Source of the DNA: Phycisphaerales bacterium
GTDB lineage: Bacteria; Planctomycetota; Phycisphaerae; Phycisphaerales; UBA1924
Direction: 5' to 3'
DNA: 64,000 nt
NCBI GenBank assembly: GCA_020847535.1
Contig: JADLBU010000093.1
Location: 1-64,000, forward strand
Each line of letters opens with the position of its first letter. Position 1 is the first letter of the stretch. Shown piece by piece: positions 1,880 to 50,218 of this stretch. The notes beneath the pieces are model-generated. The model was not told the DNA's origin. It saw only the letters and a program-made list of their open reading frames with translations, and made no database searches. Both the position numbers and the translations under genes were made by a program.

Positions 1880-3568
1880 ATGAGCGCTGCAACGACTTCC
1901 GGCCTTCGAGAGACGGCCGCCCAGTACGCGAAGATCGAGGACAAGATCCGCGAAGGGGGCGGCGCGAAGGCGATCGAGCGGCAGCATGAGAAGGGGCGGT
2001 TGACCGCGCGTGAGCGGGTGGATCGTTTGATAGATCCCAAGTCGTTCTTTCAGGAGCTTGGGGTGTGGGCGGCGTGGGAGATGTACAAGGATGCGGGCGG
2101 CGCCCCCGCGGCGGGGGTGGTGACGGGGATTGGGGTGGTGGAGGGCCGGCGAGCGATGATCATCGCGAACGATGCCACCGTGAAGGCGGGGGCGTTCTTT
2201 CCGATGACGTGCAAGAAGATTATCCGGGCGCAGACGATCGCGCAGATGGCGCGGCTGCCGTTGATCTACCTGGTGGATTCGGCGGGGGTGTTCCTTCCGA
2301 TGCAGGAGGATGTGTTTCCGGATGTGGATGACTTTGGGAGGATCTTCCGGAACAACGCGGTGATCAGCGCGGAGGGGATTCCTCAGATCGCGGCGATCAT
2401 GGGGTATTGCGTGGCGGGTGGTGGGTATCTGCCTGTGCTGTGCGACACGCTTTTGATGACGGAGGGGAGCGGGTTGTACCTGGCGGGGCCGGCCTTGGTG
2501 AAGGCGGCGATCGGGCAGGAGGTCAGTGATGAGGAGCTGGGTGGGGCGGGGATGCACGCGGCGATCTCGGGGACGATTGATTTCAGGGAGAAGGATGATG
2601 AGGCGTGCATTGCGCGGTTGAGGGGGCTGGTGGGGAAGTACGGCGGACGCAGGGACACGCAGACGCGAGGACGCGGAGTAAGAACCGGGCAGTCGGCTCG
2701 GGCGGCGGAGGATGTGTACTCGGTGTTCACGGACAAGCCGGGTGCGCAGTACGACGTCAAGGAAGTGATCGCTTGCTTCGTGGATGTTCGCGCAGAGAGG
2801 AACGAGCAGGGGCATGAATCGCTGGCGGCGGATTTTGATGAGTACAAGGCAGATTACGGGCAGTCGCTGGTGTGCGGGTATGCGAGCATGGGGGGGCATG
2901 CGTGCGGGATTGTGGCGAACCAGAAGAAGATCACGCACCGGCAGATGCCGGGTGGGAAGGCGGGGCCGGCGAAGTTCACGAACATGCCGGGGGTGATCTA
3001 CGACGATTCGGCGGACAAGGCAGCGCGGTTCATCATGGATTGCAACCAGCGGAAGATCCCGATCGTGTTCCTGCATGACACGACGGGGTTCATGGTGGGT
3101 CGGGACAGCGAGCAGGGCGGGATCATCCGTGCGGGCGCGAAGATGGTGAACGCGATGAGCAACTGCGTGGTTCCCAAGATCGTGGTGATCCTGGGGGGGA
3201 GCTACGGGGCTGGGAATTACGCGATGTGCGGTCGGGCGTTTGATCAGTTCGTGAGCTTTGCGTGGCCGGGGGCCAAGTGCGCGGTGATGGGGGCGAACCA
3301 GGCGACGGGTGTGCTGGCGACCATCGAGGAGGCCTCGCGGAAGCGTCGCGGGGAGGTGATCGATGAGGAGATGCACAAGCAGATCCTGGCGGGGATCCAC
3401 GCGGGGTACACGGAGCAGGCGGATATCCGGCACGGGGCGGCGCGGGGGTGGGTGGATCGGATCATTCAGCCGCACGAGACGCGCGGGGAGTTGATTGCTG
3501 CGCTGGAGGCGGCGGGGCAGGGGTGGGATTACACGAAGCAGTTCAAGACGGGGGTGTTGCAGACGTGA
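1880..3568 (+). CDS. Acyl-CoA carboxylase carboxyltransferase subunit (methylcrotonyl-CoA type)
   Basis: A 562-residue cytosolic enzyme that transfers carboxyl from carboxybiotin to an acyl-CoA. The N-terminal half holds the first crotonase-like fold with GYCVAGGGYLPVLCD (about 174-188). The second half has GGSYGAGNYAMCGRAFDQF (about 438-456) and MGANQATGVLATIEE, typical of the beta subunit of methylcrotonyl- or geranyl-CoA carboxylase. The start at 1880 follows GGAGA with 7 bases spacing, better than the ATG at 1874. No biotin carboxylase or BCCP gene is adjacent. Residues about 255-272 are an Arg/Thr-rich stretch encoded by GACGC-type repeat DNA and look like an in-frame insertion between the two domains. 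Confidence 0.9.
   Translation: MSAATTSGLRETAAQYAKIEDKIREGGGAKAIERQHEKGRLTARERVDRLIDPKSFFQELGVWAAWEMYKDAGGAPAAGVVTGIGVVEGRRAMIIANDATVKAGAFFPMTCKKIIRAQTIAQMARLPLIYLVDSAGVFLPMQEDVFPDVDDFGRIFRNNAVISAEGIPQIAAIMGYCVAGGGYLPVLCDTLLMTEGSGLYLAGPALVKAAIGQEVSDEELGGAGMHAAISGTIDFREKDDEACIARLRGLVGKYGGRRDTQTRGRGVRTGQSARAAEDVYSVFTDKPGAQYDVKEVIACFVDVRAERNEQGHESLAADFDEYKADYGQSLVCGYASMGGHACGIVANQKKITHRQMPGGKAGPAKFTNMPGVIYDDSADKAARFIMDCNQRKIPIVFLHDTTGFMVGRDSEQGGIIRAGAKMVNAMSNCVVPKIVVILGGSYGAGNYAMCGRAFDQFVSFAWPGAKCAVMGANQATGVLATIEEASRKRRGEVIDEEMHKQILAGIHAGYTEQADIRHGAARGWVDRIIQPHETRGELIAALEAAGQGWDYTKQFKTGVLQT
2646..2681. repeat. GACGC-rich repeat inserted in frame in the carboxyltransferase gene
   Basis: Several GACGC and GACACGC units lie in a row within about 36 bases and encode an Arg/Thr/Gly stretch unlike the surrounding enzyme. 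The DNA resembles small interspersed repeats rather than codon usage of the neighbours. The reading frame continues through it. Confidence 0.4.
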
Positions 3569-4038
3569 GGCGGACACCTGTCCTTCCAGATTGGATCAGA
3601 TCGTTTTCCGATCCTGCTTGCACGAATGTCTACGAACTGCCGGGCTTCGAGCGGGAACGAAAGCTGTACGGCACCGAGATACTTGTCGGCCGGGATGGCG
3701 TCGAAGAGTCATCCTGGCGATATGGTGATTGGGATGCCGAATTGCTGCTGCTGGCCCAGGACGCAGCGAGTGACTGGATTGCCTGTGGGTGCGCACGTCC
3801 AGATAACCAACGTGGTGGTGCGATCTCCCCGCAGTTTGCGGGGAGATTGCCCGCTGGCGGCCGATATGCAGGTAGGCGCGAACACGAGGATCGTGGCGTG
3901 CCTATGATTCATCAATCGCCGGTAGCCTCAGTATCACTTTTGCCCGCTACGACTCGTGGCTGGGCCGAACGTCCTGGGAATCTGCTGGCAGCGTCCGAGC
4001 CTTGCCGCAATGGTCAAGGGGTATTCCGGACGCTCTAG
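3565..4038 (+). CDS. Doubtful hypothetical ORF, possibly a decaying gene
   Basis: A GTG at 3565 overlaps the carboxyltransferase stop (GTGA), suggesting translational coupling, and the frame stays open for 157 residues. The first 75 residues look protein-like (KLYGTEILVGRDGVEES, then WRYGDWDAELLLLAQDA) and faintly recall uracil-DNA-glycosylase-like proteins. The second half looks random. A perfect hairpin (TCTCCCCGC, loop AGTTT, GCGGGGAGA at 3824-3846) sits inside, near where sense ends. GC content is visibly lower than in both neighbours. The sequence may be a transferred gene truncated or frameshifted after about residue 80. Bases 4039-4162 hold nothing clear beyond the helicase ribosome site. 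Confidence 0.35.
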   Translation: MRRTPVLPDWIRSFSDPACTNVYELPGFERERKLYGTEILVGRDGVEESSWRYGDWDAELLLLAQDAASDWIACGCARPDNQRGGAISPQFAGRLPAGGRYAGRREHEDRGVPMIHQSPVASVSLLPATTRGWAERPGNLLAASEPCRNGQGVFRTL

Positions 4039-4162
4039 CCCAGTACGGCCTCCTCTGATCCAGCCCGGAGTTTCTCCGACCCAAATTGGACAGGATGCCC
4101 GAACCAACCTCGGCTATGCCCTCGCGCATGTGAAGGCAGAGCCCGAAGGAGTCTTCGTTTTG

Positions 4163-5884
4163 ATGTCGTCTGATCTGAATCCTGTTTCGAACGCGTTTGT
4201 CCCTTCACCTTCAACCAGCAACTCCAACTCATTCGAGGCGCATCTCGAGCCGGTGGCGACCACCACGCCGAAGCTTGCCACCGCCACGAAGCCCACGACT
4301 CCGGTGACACCCACGCTCACCGACACTCCCACGACGCCGCGTGTGCTGATCGGGACGGCCGGCGGTCCGAGCGCTGCGGAACTCAAGTTCTCTGCGCTGA
4401 ACCTTGCCGCGCCGATCCTGCGCGCGCTATCGGATGAGAAGTACGAGACGCCGACGCCGATCCAGGCCAAGGCGATCCCTCCGGCGGCGGAGGGCCGCGA
4501 CCTCTTGGGCTGTGCGCAGACGGGCACGGGCAAGACGGCGGCGTTTGCGCTGCCGATCCTGCACCGGCTGCTGACTCAGGCCGTTGACAAGACGCAGCGC
4601 GGGCACCGTGCGCCGCGGGCGCTGATTCTGTCTCCGACGCGCGAGCTTGCGGGACAGATCGGGGACAGCTTCGCGGCCTACGGCAGGCACACGGGGCTTA
4701 CGCACACGACAATCTACGGTGGTGTGAGCCAGTTCCACCAGGTGCGGGCGCTGGATCGCGGCGTCGATGTGCTGGTGGCGACCCCGGGGCGGCTGATCGA
4801 CCTGATGCAGCAGCGGCTGGTGGACCTGTCGAAGGTTTCCATCTTCGTGCTGGATGAGGCGGACCGGATGCTGGACATGGGCTTCATCGTGCCGATCCGC
4901 CGGATCGCCGCGGCGTTGCCCAAGGCGCGGCAGACGATGCTGTTCTCGGCGACCATGCCGCGTGAGATCGTCGGGCTCGCGGAGTCGCTCCTGAAGGATC
5001 CGGTGCGTGTGTCGGTGACTCCGGTGGCATCGGCAGCGCCGTTGATCGAGCAGTTTGTGCACATGATCGAGCGTTCGCGCAAGCAGGCGCTGATCGAGCA
5101 CCTGATCACGGATGGGAAGATCCACAAGGCGCTGGTGTTCACGCGGACCAAGCGCGGGGCGGATGTCGTGACTCGTCGGCTGAACGAGGCGGGGATCACG
5201 GCGACGGCGATCCACGGGAACAAGGCCCAGAACCAGCGTCAGCGGGCGCTGGATGGGTTCCGTGCCGGGCGATCGAGGATCCTGGTGGCGACCGATGTGG
5301 CCGCTCGCGGGATCGACATCGACAACATCAGCCACGTCTTCAACTACGACCTGCCGGATGAGGCGGAGGCGTATGTGCACCGGATCGGCCGAACGGGCCG
5401 GGCGGGTGCGACGGGAATCGCGATCTCGCTGTGCGATGGCGAGGAGCGCGGGCTCCTGCGTGACATCGAGCGTCTGACGGGCAAGCGCGTGCCGGTCGCC
5501 GAGCCGGTGAAGGATCTTCCGGAGCGGGCGCACACGCCGCGAACCGCGGCGGAGGATGAGGGTCGGCGGCAGTCCAGCCATTCGCATCCTCGCCATCCGC
5601 AGGGGCACGGTCACCCGGCTCGCGGGGGCCATGCGGGCGGGACTGGCGGCGGTCGGGGCGGGCGTCCCGGCGGCGGCGCTCCGCATGCGGGTCATCGCGG
5701 ATCGCGCGGACCTGCGAAGGCTACGCGAGCGCCGGGAGGATCATCCGGCGGTCATCGCAACGGCGGCGGCCATGGGCATCCGCTGGGCGCCGGTGGGGGT
5801 GGGGGCAGGCCGCTGGCTGGTGCGCGAACGGGGATGAATCATTTCCGTGGCAAGCCGCGCAAGGGAACGGGTCGCCCGCGGTAA
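4163..5884 (+). CDS. DEAD-box ATP-dependent RNA helicase (RhlE type)
   Basis: A 573-residue RNA helicase expected to act in ribosome assembly or RNA decay. After a Thr/Ser/Pro-rich N-terminus (1-75) come the Q motif region PTPIQAKAIPP (97-107), motif I AQTGTGKT (118-125), PTREL, TPGRL, the DEAD box (231-234), SAT, ARGIDIDNISHVFNYDLP and HRIGRTGRAG. The last 110 residues are a disordered His/Gly/Arg-rich tail typical of RNA-binding extensions. The ATG at 4163 follows AGGAG at 4147-4151; upstream in-frame codons belong to the doubtful low-GC region. A strong terminator follows at 5923. A cold-shock role is possible but not shown by the sequence. Confidence 0.93.
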   Translation: MSSDLNPVSNAFVPSPSTSNSNSFEAHLEPVATTTPKLATATKPTTPVTPTLTDTPTTPRVLIGTAGGPSAAELKFSALNLAAPILRALSDEKYETPTPIQAKAIPPAAEGRDLLGCAQTGTGKTAAFALPILHRLLTQAVDKTQRGHRAPRALILSPTRELAGQIGDSFAAYGRHTGLTHTTIYGGVSQFHQVRALDRGVDVLVATPGRLIDLMQQRLVDLSKVSIFVLDEADRMLDMGFIVPIRRIAAALPKARQTMLFSATMPREIVGLAESLLKDPVRVSVTPVASAAPLIEQFVHMIERSRKQALIEHLITDGKIHKALVFTRTKRGADVVTRRLNEAGITATAIHGNKAQNQRQRALDGFRAGRSRILVATDVAARGIDIDNISHVFNYDLPDEAEAYVHRIGRTGRAGATGIAISLCDGEERGLLRDIERLTGKRVPVAEPVKDLPERAHTPRTAAEDEGRRQSSHSHPRHPQGHGHPARGGHAGGTGGGRGGRPGGGAPHAGHRGSRGPAKATRAPGGSSGGHRNGGGHGHPLGAGGGGGRPLAGARTGMNHFRGKPRKGTGRPR

Positions 5885-47395: not shown

Positions 47396-48292
47396 ATGCC
47401 TCCGCGCCGTTACGACCTGATCGCCATTGACCTCGATGGCACGCTGCTCAACTCGTCATCGCAGGTGACTCAGGCCAACGCCCTGGCGATCCGGACGGCG
47501 CGCGAGGCCGGGGCCAAGGTCATCGTCTGCACCGGCCGCGGGCTGGTGGAGTGCCGGCAATACCTGGATGCGATCGGCCAGACCGACCCGGTGGTGGTCG
47601 CCGGCGGATCGATCATCGCATGCCCCGTCACATCCCGGGTGCTGCACCGTTTCAAGCTCGACCAGCGGCTGGTCACACACGCCGTACAGCGGATCCACTC
47701 GTACGGGTACCCGGCGCTGGTGCTCAAGGATCCGGTCGAGGCGGGGTACGACTACCTGGTCGTCACCGGAGAGGCCGATCATCCGCTGGATCCGGTCACG
47801 AGGTGGTGGTTCCAGAGCATGAATGTGCAGGTTCGGTTTGCCAGAGAGCTCTCCGATGATGCCCATCCCGAGCACACGGTGCGGCTGGGGGCGTGCGGCA
47901 TGTCGGGGCAGATGGCGCAGGTCGAGCGGGACCTGATCGAGGCCTTCAAGGATGAGCTGCATCTCTACCACTTCCCCGCCGTTGTGGCGCCCGAGCATGC
48001 GAGCAAGGCTGGCGATGGGCAGGTGCTGCACGTGCTGGAGGTCTTTGATCGCAACGCCAACAAGTGGGCGGCGATCGAGGTGCTCGCGAGGCAGCTGGGC
48101 ATTGACCGCACCCGGATCGCGGCGATCGGGGACCAGATCAACGATGTGGCGATGCTCAGGGGCGCAGCCCTTGGGATCGCGATGGGCAACGCCGTTCCGG
48201 CGGCGATCTCCGCATCCACGCGCCAGACAAAGACCAACGATGACGATGGGGTTGCCCATGCGATCGGCATGATGCTCAACGGGGAATGGTGA
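47396..48292 (+). CDS. Cof-type HAD-superfamily hydrolase
   Basis: A 298-residue HAD-IIB phosphatase. Motif I is AIDLDGTLLN, motif II is KVIVCTGRG and motif IV is AAIGDQINDVAMLRGA with the preceding conserved Lys (ANKWAA). The Cof/YidA-type cap lies between. Substrates of this family are sugar phosphates or cofactor precursors; none can be singled out. The ATG at 47396 is used; the region before it has TACCCT at a leaderless-like distance. The R-M-like module follows. Confidence 0.85.
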   Translation: MPPRRYDLIAIDLDGTLLNSSSQVTQANALAIRTAREAGAKVIVCTGRGLVECRQYLDAIGQTDPVVVAGGSIIACPVTSRVLHRFKLDQRLVTHAVQRIHSYGYPALVLKDPVEAGYDYLVVTGEADHPLDPVTRWWFQSMNVQVRFARELSDDAHPEHTVRLGACGMSGQMAQVERDLIEAFKDELHLYHFPAVVAPEHASKAGDGQVLHVLEVFDRNANKWAAIEVLARQLGIDRTRIAAIGDQINDVAMLRGAALGIAMGNAVPAAISASTRQTKTNDDDGVAHAIGMMLNGEW

Positions 48293-48352
48293 GGGCCGAG
48301 CCGATCGTCGAATGTTGTGTACCAGGTGCGGGCGGTTGTGATGTGAATCCGC

Positions 48353-48358
48353 TACAAT
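48353..48358 (+). promoter_or_regulatory. Candidate -10 box (TACAAT) and ribosome site for the R-M module
   Basis: TACAAT at 48353-48358 is followed by GGAGGTG at 48371-48377 and TTG at 48385. It would give a 20-base leader with a strong ribosome site. Confidence 0.45.
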
Positions 48359-48384
48359 GGCGTCCGATCCGGAGGTGTTCGCCG

Positions 48385-49521
48385 TTGTCTTATCCGTCCG
48401 TCGACAAGCTCCAGAATATGCTCGTCACCGAGGTCTTTGGCTACGCCAAGGACAAGAAGAAGGCATCCGGACGGGCTTTGGGCACTCTTGTCGAAATCGT
48501 GACCTTCTACACGCTCTGCGCCTGGGGATTGCGGGATGCGACGGCCATCGAGCGGCCTGCGCCAGAGTTTGCCAATCCGGAAATCACTCACAACGTCGAG
48601 TTCTCCGTGCATCCGATCGTGGGCTCGAAGTCTGTGACGGTGAAGCCTTTGCAGTTGCCATTGACTTCCAGAAAGCTCTTGAAGCTCTCAGACGACCTGC
48701 CCACCGGCATCAGAGTCCGCGATGAGCAGGTTCTGACTCGTGGCAATGTCATGCGGAACTCCGCGGTCGTGGCCGAACACGCGGGTGGATTCACGAGCGC
48801 GCACGTTCACGGAATGGCAGCGGACAGTTGCGTGGTCGCGCTCACCGATTTGCTAACGGCACCGTTCGCCATCTTCGAGTGCAAACGCGTCGGTGTTGAG
48901 GAAGGGATGCGCAAAGGGCCACAGACCATCGAGAAGGCCAAGCAGGGTGCGTACGTTGCCCGGTCCGTCTCATCGCTACAGAAGTTTCGGCTCCAGAGCG
49001 GCAAGGTGCAGGGCGTGCTGGACACGGGGGGTGGCAAACTCCGCACCGGCGACTACGACAAGCTCCTTCGTCAGGTCATCGACGGCAATGATGCCGATGC
49101 ACTCCGGCACTTCATCCTGACCGTGGGTGTCGTGAGTAACCACGGCAACTGGTTTACTGCGGCGAACCAAAACAAGGAACTGAAAGTCCTCGCCCACTCG
49201 TACGACTGGCTCCTGTTCCTTACCGACTACGGGCTGAGTCAGTTCATCGAAAAGCTGCTGCGGAATCCGGTCGAGGAGCTCAAGCCCGCCAAGGATGCGT
49301 TCCTCGCGAGTTACCGAGCCGAGAAGACCGGAAACACGTTTACCAAGGTCAAGATTGGTGTCAAAGCCGACCAAGCCTTGAAGCGGTACTTTCAACTGCA
49401 CGAGTCCGAGGTCGAGAACTGGTTCAACGTGATTGCACCCGCCGGCGGCACGCTGAAGCAACTCAGGGAGGATATGGTCAAACTTGCAGGCAAAGATTGG
49501 AGGAGGATTCGTCAGCCATGA
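48385..49521 (+). CDS. Putative restriction endonuclease with PD-(D/E)XK motif
   Basis: A 378-residue soluble protein. The core TDLLTAPFAIFECKR gives Asp155-X9-Glu165-Cys-Lys167, the PD-(D/E)XK nuclease signature, in a fold-like setting (strand, then helix GPQTIEKAKQGAYVARSV). The TTG at 48385 has a near-perfect ribosome site seven bases upstream; no ATG is as well placed. The stop overlaps the start of a DNA adenine methyltransferase gene (ATGA), as in restriction-modification pairs. The sequence matches no restriction enzyme I recognise. GC content is visibly lower than in the flanking housekeeping genes, suggesting transfer. Specificity unknown. Confidence 0.7.
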   Translation: MSYPSVDKLQNMLVTEVFGYAKDKKKASGRALGTLVEIVTFYTLCAWGLRDATAIERPAPEFANPEITHNVEFSVHPIVGSKSVTVKPLQLPLTSRKLLKLSDDLPTGIRVRDEQVLTRGNVMRNSAVVAEHAGGFTSAHVHGMAADSCVVALTDLLTAPFAIFECKRVGVEEGMRKGPQTIEKAKQGAYVARSVSSLQKFRLQSGKVQGVLDTGGGKLRTGDYDKLLRQVIDGNDADALRHFILTVGVVSNHGNWFTAANQNKELKVLAHSYDWLLFLTDYGLSQFIEKLLRNPVEELKPAKDAFLASYRAEKTGNTFTKVKIGVKADQALKRYFQLHESEVENWFNVIAPAGGTLKQLREDMVKLAGKDWRRIRQP

Positions 49522-50159
49522 CCGCCGGCCGCAGCATCGTGTCGATCAGCCAGACGTGGTGTACACCGCCCAAGTACATCCGCGCTGTGCGAGAGGTTCT
49601 GGGCGGGGTGATCGCCCTCGATCCCTGCTCCAACAAGCACTCGGTGGTTCGAGCGCAGGTCGAGTATCGTCTCCCGGAGCAGGATGGGCTTCATGGAAGT
49701 TGGGATTACCCCACGATCTACGTCAATCCACCGTACGGGGCCGACCGGGAGCGCGGCACGACCATCAAACACTGGCTCCGCCGGTGCGCCCGCGCCCATG
49801 ACGAGCACGGCTCGGACGTGCTTGCCCTCGTACCGGTCGCCACAAACACCAAGCACTGGAAAGACTATGTCTTCGGCGTTGCCGATGCCATCGCGTTCCT
49901 GTACGACACCCGCCTGAAGTTTCTCGTGGATGGCAAGGATGGCGGCAAGGGCGCTCCGATGTCCTGCTGCATGATCTACTGGGGCGCGCACGTCGCCCGC
50001 TTCGAGCAGGTGTTCCTTCCCTTCGGCGCGGTGATCGATCTGCGCAGCCTCAAAGGCAAGCCGCTCGGGCTTGAGCGCCACCCGGAACATACGATGCTCT
50101 TCGCCGCCCGCGGGGAGCTCAACGGCCACACACCGGCCTCGCGGCGCACGGCGAGATAG
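49518..50159 (+). CDS. Phage-type DNA N6-adenine methyltransferase
   Basis: A 213-residue methyltransferase of the Dam_phage family. An N-terminal SQTWCTPPKYI matches the W-x-TPP opening, LDPC (34-37) the cofactor-side motif and NPPYG (70-74) the catalytic adenine-binding motif IV. DGLHGSWDYPTIYV precedes it, as in phage enzymes. The ATG at 49518 overlaps the nuclease stop, and AGGAGG lies about 12 bases upstream. Members act in phages or R-M systems; pairing with a PD-(D/E)XK protein favours the latter. The target is unknown. No tail, portal or integrase gene is near, so this is not an intact prophage. Confidence 0.88.
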   Translation: MTAGRSIVSISQTWCTPPKYIRAVREVLGGVIALDPCSNKHSVVRAQVEYRLPEQDGLHGSWDYPTIYVNPPYGADRERGTTIKHWLRRCARAHDEHGSDVLALVPVATNTKHWKDYVFGVADAIAFLYDTRLKFLVDGKDGGKGAPMSCCMIYWGAHVARFEQVFLPFGAVIDLRSLKGKPLGLERHPEHTMLFAARGELNGHTPASRRTAR

Positions 50160-50218
50160 CGTGCCCTCGATGTCCGGCGTCGGGCGCCGATCACGATGAC
50201 CGTTGGTGCCACCTTCAC

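Follow-up and report, generated by a model that had tools for sequence, protein, structure and literature searches.

A candidate two-gene Type II-like restriction-modification family joining a PD-(D/E)XK-type nuclease to a Dam-family methyltransferase

In a 64,000-nucleotide stretch of DNA from a Phycisphaerales bacterium (the window), a nuclease gene is directly followed by the gene of an adenine methyltransferase. We analysed this pair in the window and in its relatives, and very probably it is a stand-alone, two-gene restriction-modification system of Type II-like design. With moderate confidence, we further propose that it represents an undescribed Type II family spread across phyla, whose nuclease has a variant Glu-Glu-(Glu-x-Lys) site and whose methyltransferase was captured several separate times by phages, once leaving a scar of the nuclease gene.

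What we infer is function: that one enzyme cleaves DNA and the other methylates it, that both recognise the same site, and that the pair serves defence. In the proposed mechanism, the Dam-type enzyme would recognise a short specific sequence in the host DNA and methylate its adenine at N6. The PD-(D/E)XK nuclease would cut this sequence wherever it lacks the methyl group, by which incoming phage or plasmid DNA would be destroyed. Ribosomes ending the nuclease would restart on the methyltransferase at an ATGA overlap, so that the nuclease would not be translated without its protector. The pair would move as one unit, which in the window entered the junction of a HAD hydrolase gene and rsmA, and phages would respond by acquiring the methyltransferase alone.

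Layout, linkage and insertion of the pair

The PD-(D/E)XK-type nuclease gene (R) occupies positions 48385–49521 (all window features given here and below are on the forward strand), begins with TTG and encodes 378 aa. The adenine-N6 DNA methyltransferase gene (M), of the Pfam Dam family (PF05869), lies in the same direction at 49518–50159 and encodes 213 aa. The nuclease stop and the methyltransferase start overlap in ATGA at 49518–49521, read directly from the sequence, an arrangement expected to give translational coupling. A ribosome-binding site of the nuclease gene, GGAGGTG, can likewise be read directly at 48371–48377, 7 nt before the TTG. An in-frame ATG further upstream, at 48286, was rejected as the nuclease start. 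The TTG at 48385 is preferred because the homologues begin at its position (Met1 is nearly invariant, with the consensus M-x-Y-x-S-V-D) and because the ribosome site precedes it.

The first-pass annotation had already described this ribosome site, the ATGA coupling, the lower GC content and the flanking genes, and all of these were confirmed; the GC content is about 57–61% across the nuclease gene versus 65–69% in the surroundings, and the flanks are a HAD hydrolase gene upstream and rsmA downstream. It had also given the pair its own TACAAT box. This AT-rich hexamer is present at 48353–48358, but no -35/-10 pair upstream of the nuclease gene passes a sigma-70 scan, and a promoter box there is therefore unsupported.

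Relatives of the nuclease were confirmed by a genome scan at 217 places in the GTDB genome set. According to the record titles, the best 80 of the 217 span about 20 phylum-level groups, among them Planctomycetota, Verrucomicrobiota, Chloroflexota, Cyanobacteriota, Gemmatimonadota, Latescibacterota, Pseudomonadota and Bacteroidota; one Methanophagales archaeon is also included. Single host labels may be wrong, because most of these 80 are metagenome bins. The nuclease was present in 5 of 100 genomes of its own family, and four viral contigs (IMG/VR) carry the complete pair. The 88 nuclease loci that were fetched include the best 80 of the 217 GTDB relatives and the four viral contigs. With the window's own copy added, the 89 copies reduced to 83 distinct nucleases.

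In all 88 fetched loci the same methyltransferase is the next gene downstream of the nuclease. This is the arrangement of separate, adjacent nuclease and methyltransferase genes by which Type II systems are defined, and it is the opposite of what the first-pass annotation had named as refuting its idea, namely homologues that never adjoin a methyltransferase. Of the 85 homologous loci that were read on the plus strand, 65 have the exact 4-base overlap. Among the nearest neighbours of the fetched loci no conserved third gene was found; the genes there are diverse and unrelated, metabolic and transport genes among them. A translocase, helicase or specificity subunit as a recurrent neighbour was absent too, which excludes Types I and III, BREX and DISARM. 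A larger system similar to BREX or DISARM was ruled out as well, since there is no third gene.

The pairwise distances of the two proteins correlate (Mantel r 0.72, while the best of 1000 permutations gave 0.12). Between the R and M gene trees 11 well-supported splits conflict, and therefore some partner exchange or tree error exists. Compared with six near homologues, some of which are the same locus in two collections, dN/dS was 0.07–0.09 for the nuclease and 0.09–0.13 for the methyltransferase. Both genes are under purifying selection.

The segment between the HAD hydrolase stop and the rsmA start (48293–50218; 1926 bp, or 1.93 kb) coincides with the GC dip and contains the pair alone. In G367, a genome of the same genus, the relatives of the HAD gene (488585–489472) and of rsmA (489498–490322) both lie on contig C2 and are separated by 22 bp from stop to start. 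Because these two genes adjoin in a genome of the same genus, the pair is an insertion in the window. Long repeats flanking the insert were not found. The window's HAD, rsmA or GGDEF genes were near none of 12 close homologous loci examined, several of which have short flanks. The best explanation is a module that is transferred horizontally, as a unit, between distantly related bacteria.

Fold, conserved residues and remote relatives of the nuclease

Searches of Pfam, PHROG, NCBIfam and PDB sequences gave no credible match for the window nuclease or for the 82-member set. No relative was detected by tblastn in plasmids and annotated phages, and Foldseek against the PDB and a viral library returned no significant match. 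The nuclease family is unnamed in these libraries and only weakly reached by PADLOC (see below), in line with the unknown family of the first reading.

The AlphaFold2 model of the nuclease has a pLDDT of 90 and a pTM of 0.91. Its five best structural alignments were to NucC (Z 5.7), three entries of BbvCI (Z 5.3–5.5) and Cdn1 (Z 5.2), all of which are PD-(D/E)XK proteins. BsmI, Mus81-Eme1, NucS-type and Hjc nucleases appeared among the lower matches, and entries of FtsZ, which is unrelated, appeared from Z 4.6 downward. The modest Z values (<6) and the FtsZ entries therefore support the fold class and no closer tie. On this predicted structure, the nuclease is probably of the PD-(D/E)XK type, its core being recognised at modest Z. 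BbvCI, a Type IIT restriction enzyme, and NucC, a CBASS effector nuclease, appear to have this core in common with the nuclease (Z 5.3–5.7) and have no detectable sequence similarity to it. Relative to them, the insertion that separates the HNVE strand from the ECK strand is larger in the nuclease, which also continues for about 200 more residues at its C-terminus.

Glu37, His69-Asn70-Val71-Glu72 and Glu165-Cys166-Lys167 are invariant in all 83 distinct nucleases, and so is much of residues 178–192. The codon of Glu37, probably the core glutamate, is at 48493–48495, and the residue lies in the long first helix (24–46) of the model. The H69-N70-V71-E72 codons occupy 48589–48600, and the E165-C166-K167 codons (48877–48885), in strand 162–169 of the model, would encode the (D/E)XK part of the catalytic centre. 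After the ECK strand follows a helix motif, G178-PQTIEKAKQ-G188 (codons at 48916–48948), which is invariant or nearly so.

The first-pass annotation had placed the active site at Asp155, Glu165 and Lys167. The latter two hold throughout the family, but Asp155 was rejected as a catalytic residue, as residue 155 is Asp in merely 7 of the 83 homologues; residue 147 is Asp in 23 of 83. Between the first helix and the E-x-K there is no invariant Asp, and the E-x-K itself is present (E165, K167). The invariant Glu72 is likely the substitute for the usual Asp of PD-(D/E)XK enzymes, and probably a metal ligand. Conservation and the order of the elements suggest that E37, E72, E165 and K167 form the catalytic set.

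A link to a catalogued nuclease was provided by the PADLOC REase_II model PDLC03437, which weakly matches 65 of 82 family members (best E 8.9e-7); the window's own nuclease does not match it by itself. One true member of PDLC03437 was located, in the genome G675 (L140:1447–2523, E 2.9e-100). This member matched the nuclease family with an hmmsearch E of 9.8e-10 and an hhalign probability of 94% (E 9.8e-8, 61 columns). Both are of the same length class and have the same order of motifs, namely a Gly-Arg/Glu helix, H-x-V-E-F, F-x-E-C-K-(K/R)-V-G-V-E and G-P-Q-T-x-E-K-A-K-Q, of which the last two read F-x-E-C-K-K-V-G-V-E and GPQTPEKAKQ in the G675 member. There, over 100 residues separate the ECK motif from GPQT, and the similarity to our family is remote. 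These sequence comparisons indicate that the nuclease is a remote homologue of a catalogued Type II nuclease. A search of 392 Planctomycetota genomes with PDLC03437 gave no match even in the controls and was uninformative.

The nuclease of G675 does not adjoin a Dam-type enzyme. Its neighbours are a methyltransferase-like protein with an HPPY motif, which has no Pfam match, and an XRE regulator. A PDLC03437-type nuclease beside an unrelated methyltransferase indicates that the same nuclease lineage occurs with different methyltransferases, as is the case for restriction nucleases. At this locus (L140/L141, G675:C1:966000–973500) the nuclease gene is convergent with the HPPY-motif gene, with the regulator adjoining, and the locus is probably another little-known Type II system.

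The methyltransferase and its solitary relatives in phages

The methyltransferase of the pair, METHYLTRANSFERASE, belongs to Pfam Dam (PF05869; E 5e-12, 46.2 bits, above the cut-off of 28.1) and has the DPC(S/A) and NPPY motifs. The D35-P-C-S38 codons (49620–49631) are conserved and probably encode the AdoMet-side motif, and the N70-P-P-Y73 codons (49725–49736), invariant in 83 of 83, encode catalytic motif IV of amino-methyltransferases. In its model, the protein is similar to adenine methyltransferases, among them E. coli Dam and the human cap adenosine enzyme.

The name Dam_phage-type, given to this enzyme at first reading, was right about the Pfam family but not about close kinship with the annotated phage enzymes. 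Against the NCBIfam model TIGR01712 (phage_N6A_met) the protein scored 27.4 bits, far below the cut-off of 97.05. It is 52–87% identical to its nuclease-linked homologues, and about 27–37% identical to the annotated phage and plasmid Dam proteins among the matches listed. The phage Dam methyltransferases (PF05869; PHROG 111; TIGR01712) belong to the same profile family and have the same two motifs, whereas M belongs to a distinct clade that is nuclease-linked in cellular genomes. By sequence, it thus falls in its own nuclease-linked clade, apart from the usual phage Dam enzymes.

Avoidance of a recognition site was sought in host genomes. Palindrome depletion, pooled over 77 hosts and compared between G000 and its genus mate, gave no candidate site, and the counts showed CTAG and general effects only. 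GATC was rejected as the recognition site, with no specific depletion and no evidence for it. A separate observation concerns AGCT in 400 kb of G367 (L119–L138), which was seen 42 times versus 1258 expected from trimers (O/E 0.03), compared with an O/E of 1.03 in G000. This result suggested that G367 extremely avoids the AluI-type site.

With the methyltransferase set as query, 18 loci were found in viral contigs, four with the pair and 14 with the methyltransferase alone. In the whole records of these 14 contigs, which may be fragments, a search that had no positive control of its own detected no nuclease. A maximum-likelihood tree was built from 83 nuclease-linked methyltransferases and 12 solitary phage enzymes. 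The solitary enzymes nest at several points among the nuclease-linked ones; the phage label needs 9 changes on the tree, and well-supported branches force at least 5.

One of the phage copies has kept a DNA scar of the lost nuclease. In L147, the methyltransferase ATG is directly preceded by 62 bp (2940–3001) that match the nuclease gene of another locus, L003, at its 3' end with 91% identity; their local score was 92–99, compared with at most 27 in 200 shuffles. The rest of the nuclease is gone, and the remnant is fused to another ORF. The remnant indicates that at least this phage took its methyltransferase from such an operon. Phages probably captured the protective half of the pair for anti-restriction, presumably with its specificity shared.

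Solitary anti-restriction methyltransferases are known in phages, for example in lactococcal 936-type phages (PMC4190342). The 14 contigs with the methyltransferase alone fit the same role, shielding phage DNA from a host nuclease. Unlike in the 936-type example, the source system can be identified here, and L147 still bears a piece of its nuclease. Further methyltransferases were seen in some of these contigs. In L147 a second one, N6_N4, follows at 3844–5034, and in L146 (5693–6208) and L149 (712–1248) a second, distant Dam-family methyltransferase lies within a few kb of the solitary one.

Alternative readings and significance

Type II systems are known for selfish behaviour, and the pair could be a selfish addiction module which is maintained by post-segregational killing, with antiviral defence secondary. 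The stand-alone two-gene layout, the horizontal spread and the differing insertion places fit this reading. Sequence cannot separate addiction from defence; however, that phages captured the methyltransferase alone argues for real pressure on them, and we consider the addiction reading rather unlikely. Still more doubtful is that the pair is an accessory module of phages, spreading mainly as cargo of temperate ones and excluding competitors, with the window copy as a prophage remnant. The four IMG/VR contigs with the pair, the phage-type integrase about 600 bp from the pair in L003, with repressor-like ORFs beyond, and the lower GC content of the window segment would agree with it. In contrast, no phage gene flanks the window pair, whose insert consists of the two genes alone (1.93 kb), and no nuclease relative is present in the annotated phages. 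The 119 nearest neighbours examined for 70-odd loci included only single integrase-like and helicase-like matches, and no structural phage gene among the families listed. Such a module would not contradict a restriction-modification mechanism. The term phage-derived, used in the first-pass annotation, is not borne out: most copies have unrelated chromosomal genes around them and no phage neighbours, and the most clearly marked link has the opposite direction, from the pair to phages, which took its methyltransferase.

It is highly improbable that the nuclease is modification-dependent (Type IV-like) or a DNA-repair enzyme, with the methyltransferase marking sites for it. Such a role might be suggested by the closest solved folds, which include NucC, Cdn1 and repair enzymes besides restriction enzymes. 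But a nuclease that cut the DNA modified by its operon partner would be lethal to the host, and the sequence link goes to the Type II model PDLC03437. Phages that keep M and lose the nuclease also fit protection, not marking for destruction. The restriction-modification reading is preferred. There is good support for the original idea that an unnamed nuclease of PD-(D/E)XK type forms a restriction-modification-like pair with the methyltransferase; its details on Asp155, phage-Dam kinship and phage derivation are the exceptions.

No description of the pair was found in the open-access literature, and REBASE may list predicted members. The pair is a new family within the known logic of Type II, not a new kind of system. 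It brings no new principle, and it offers a testable nuclease whose specificity is yet to be assigned. The module is small, mobile and probably antiviral. The family has at least 217 members in about 20 phyla, no name in Pfam or NCBIfam and only weak coverage by PADLOC, so that defence surveys likely under-count a restriction system that appears to be common. It also provides a host–phage pair, the restriction-modification operon versus the captured methyltransferase; here the DNA shows which way the genes flowed, and the capture by a phage is datable.
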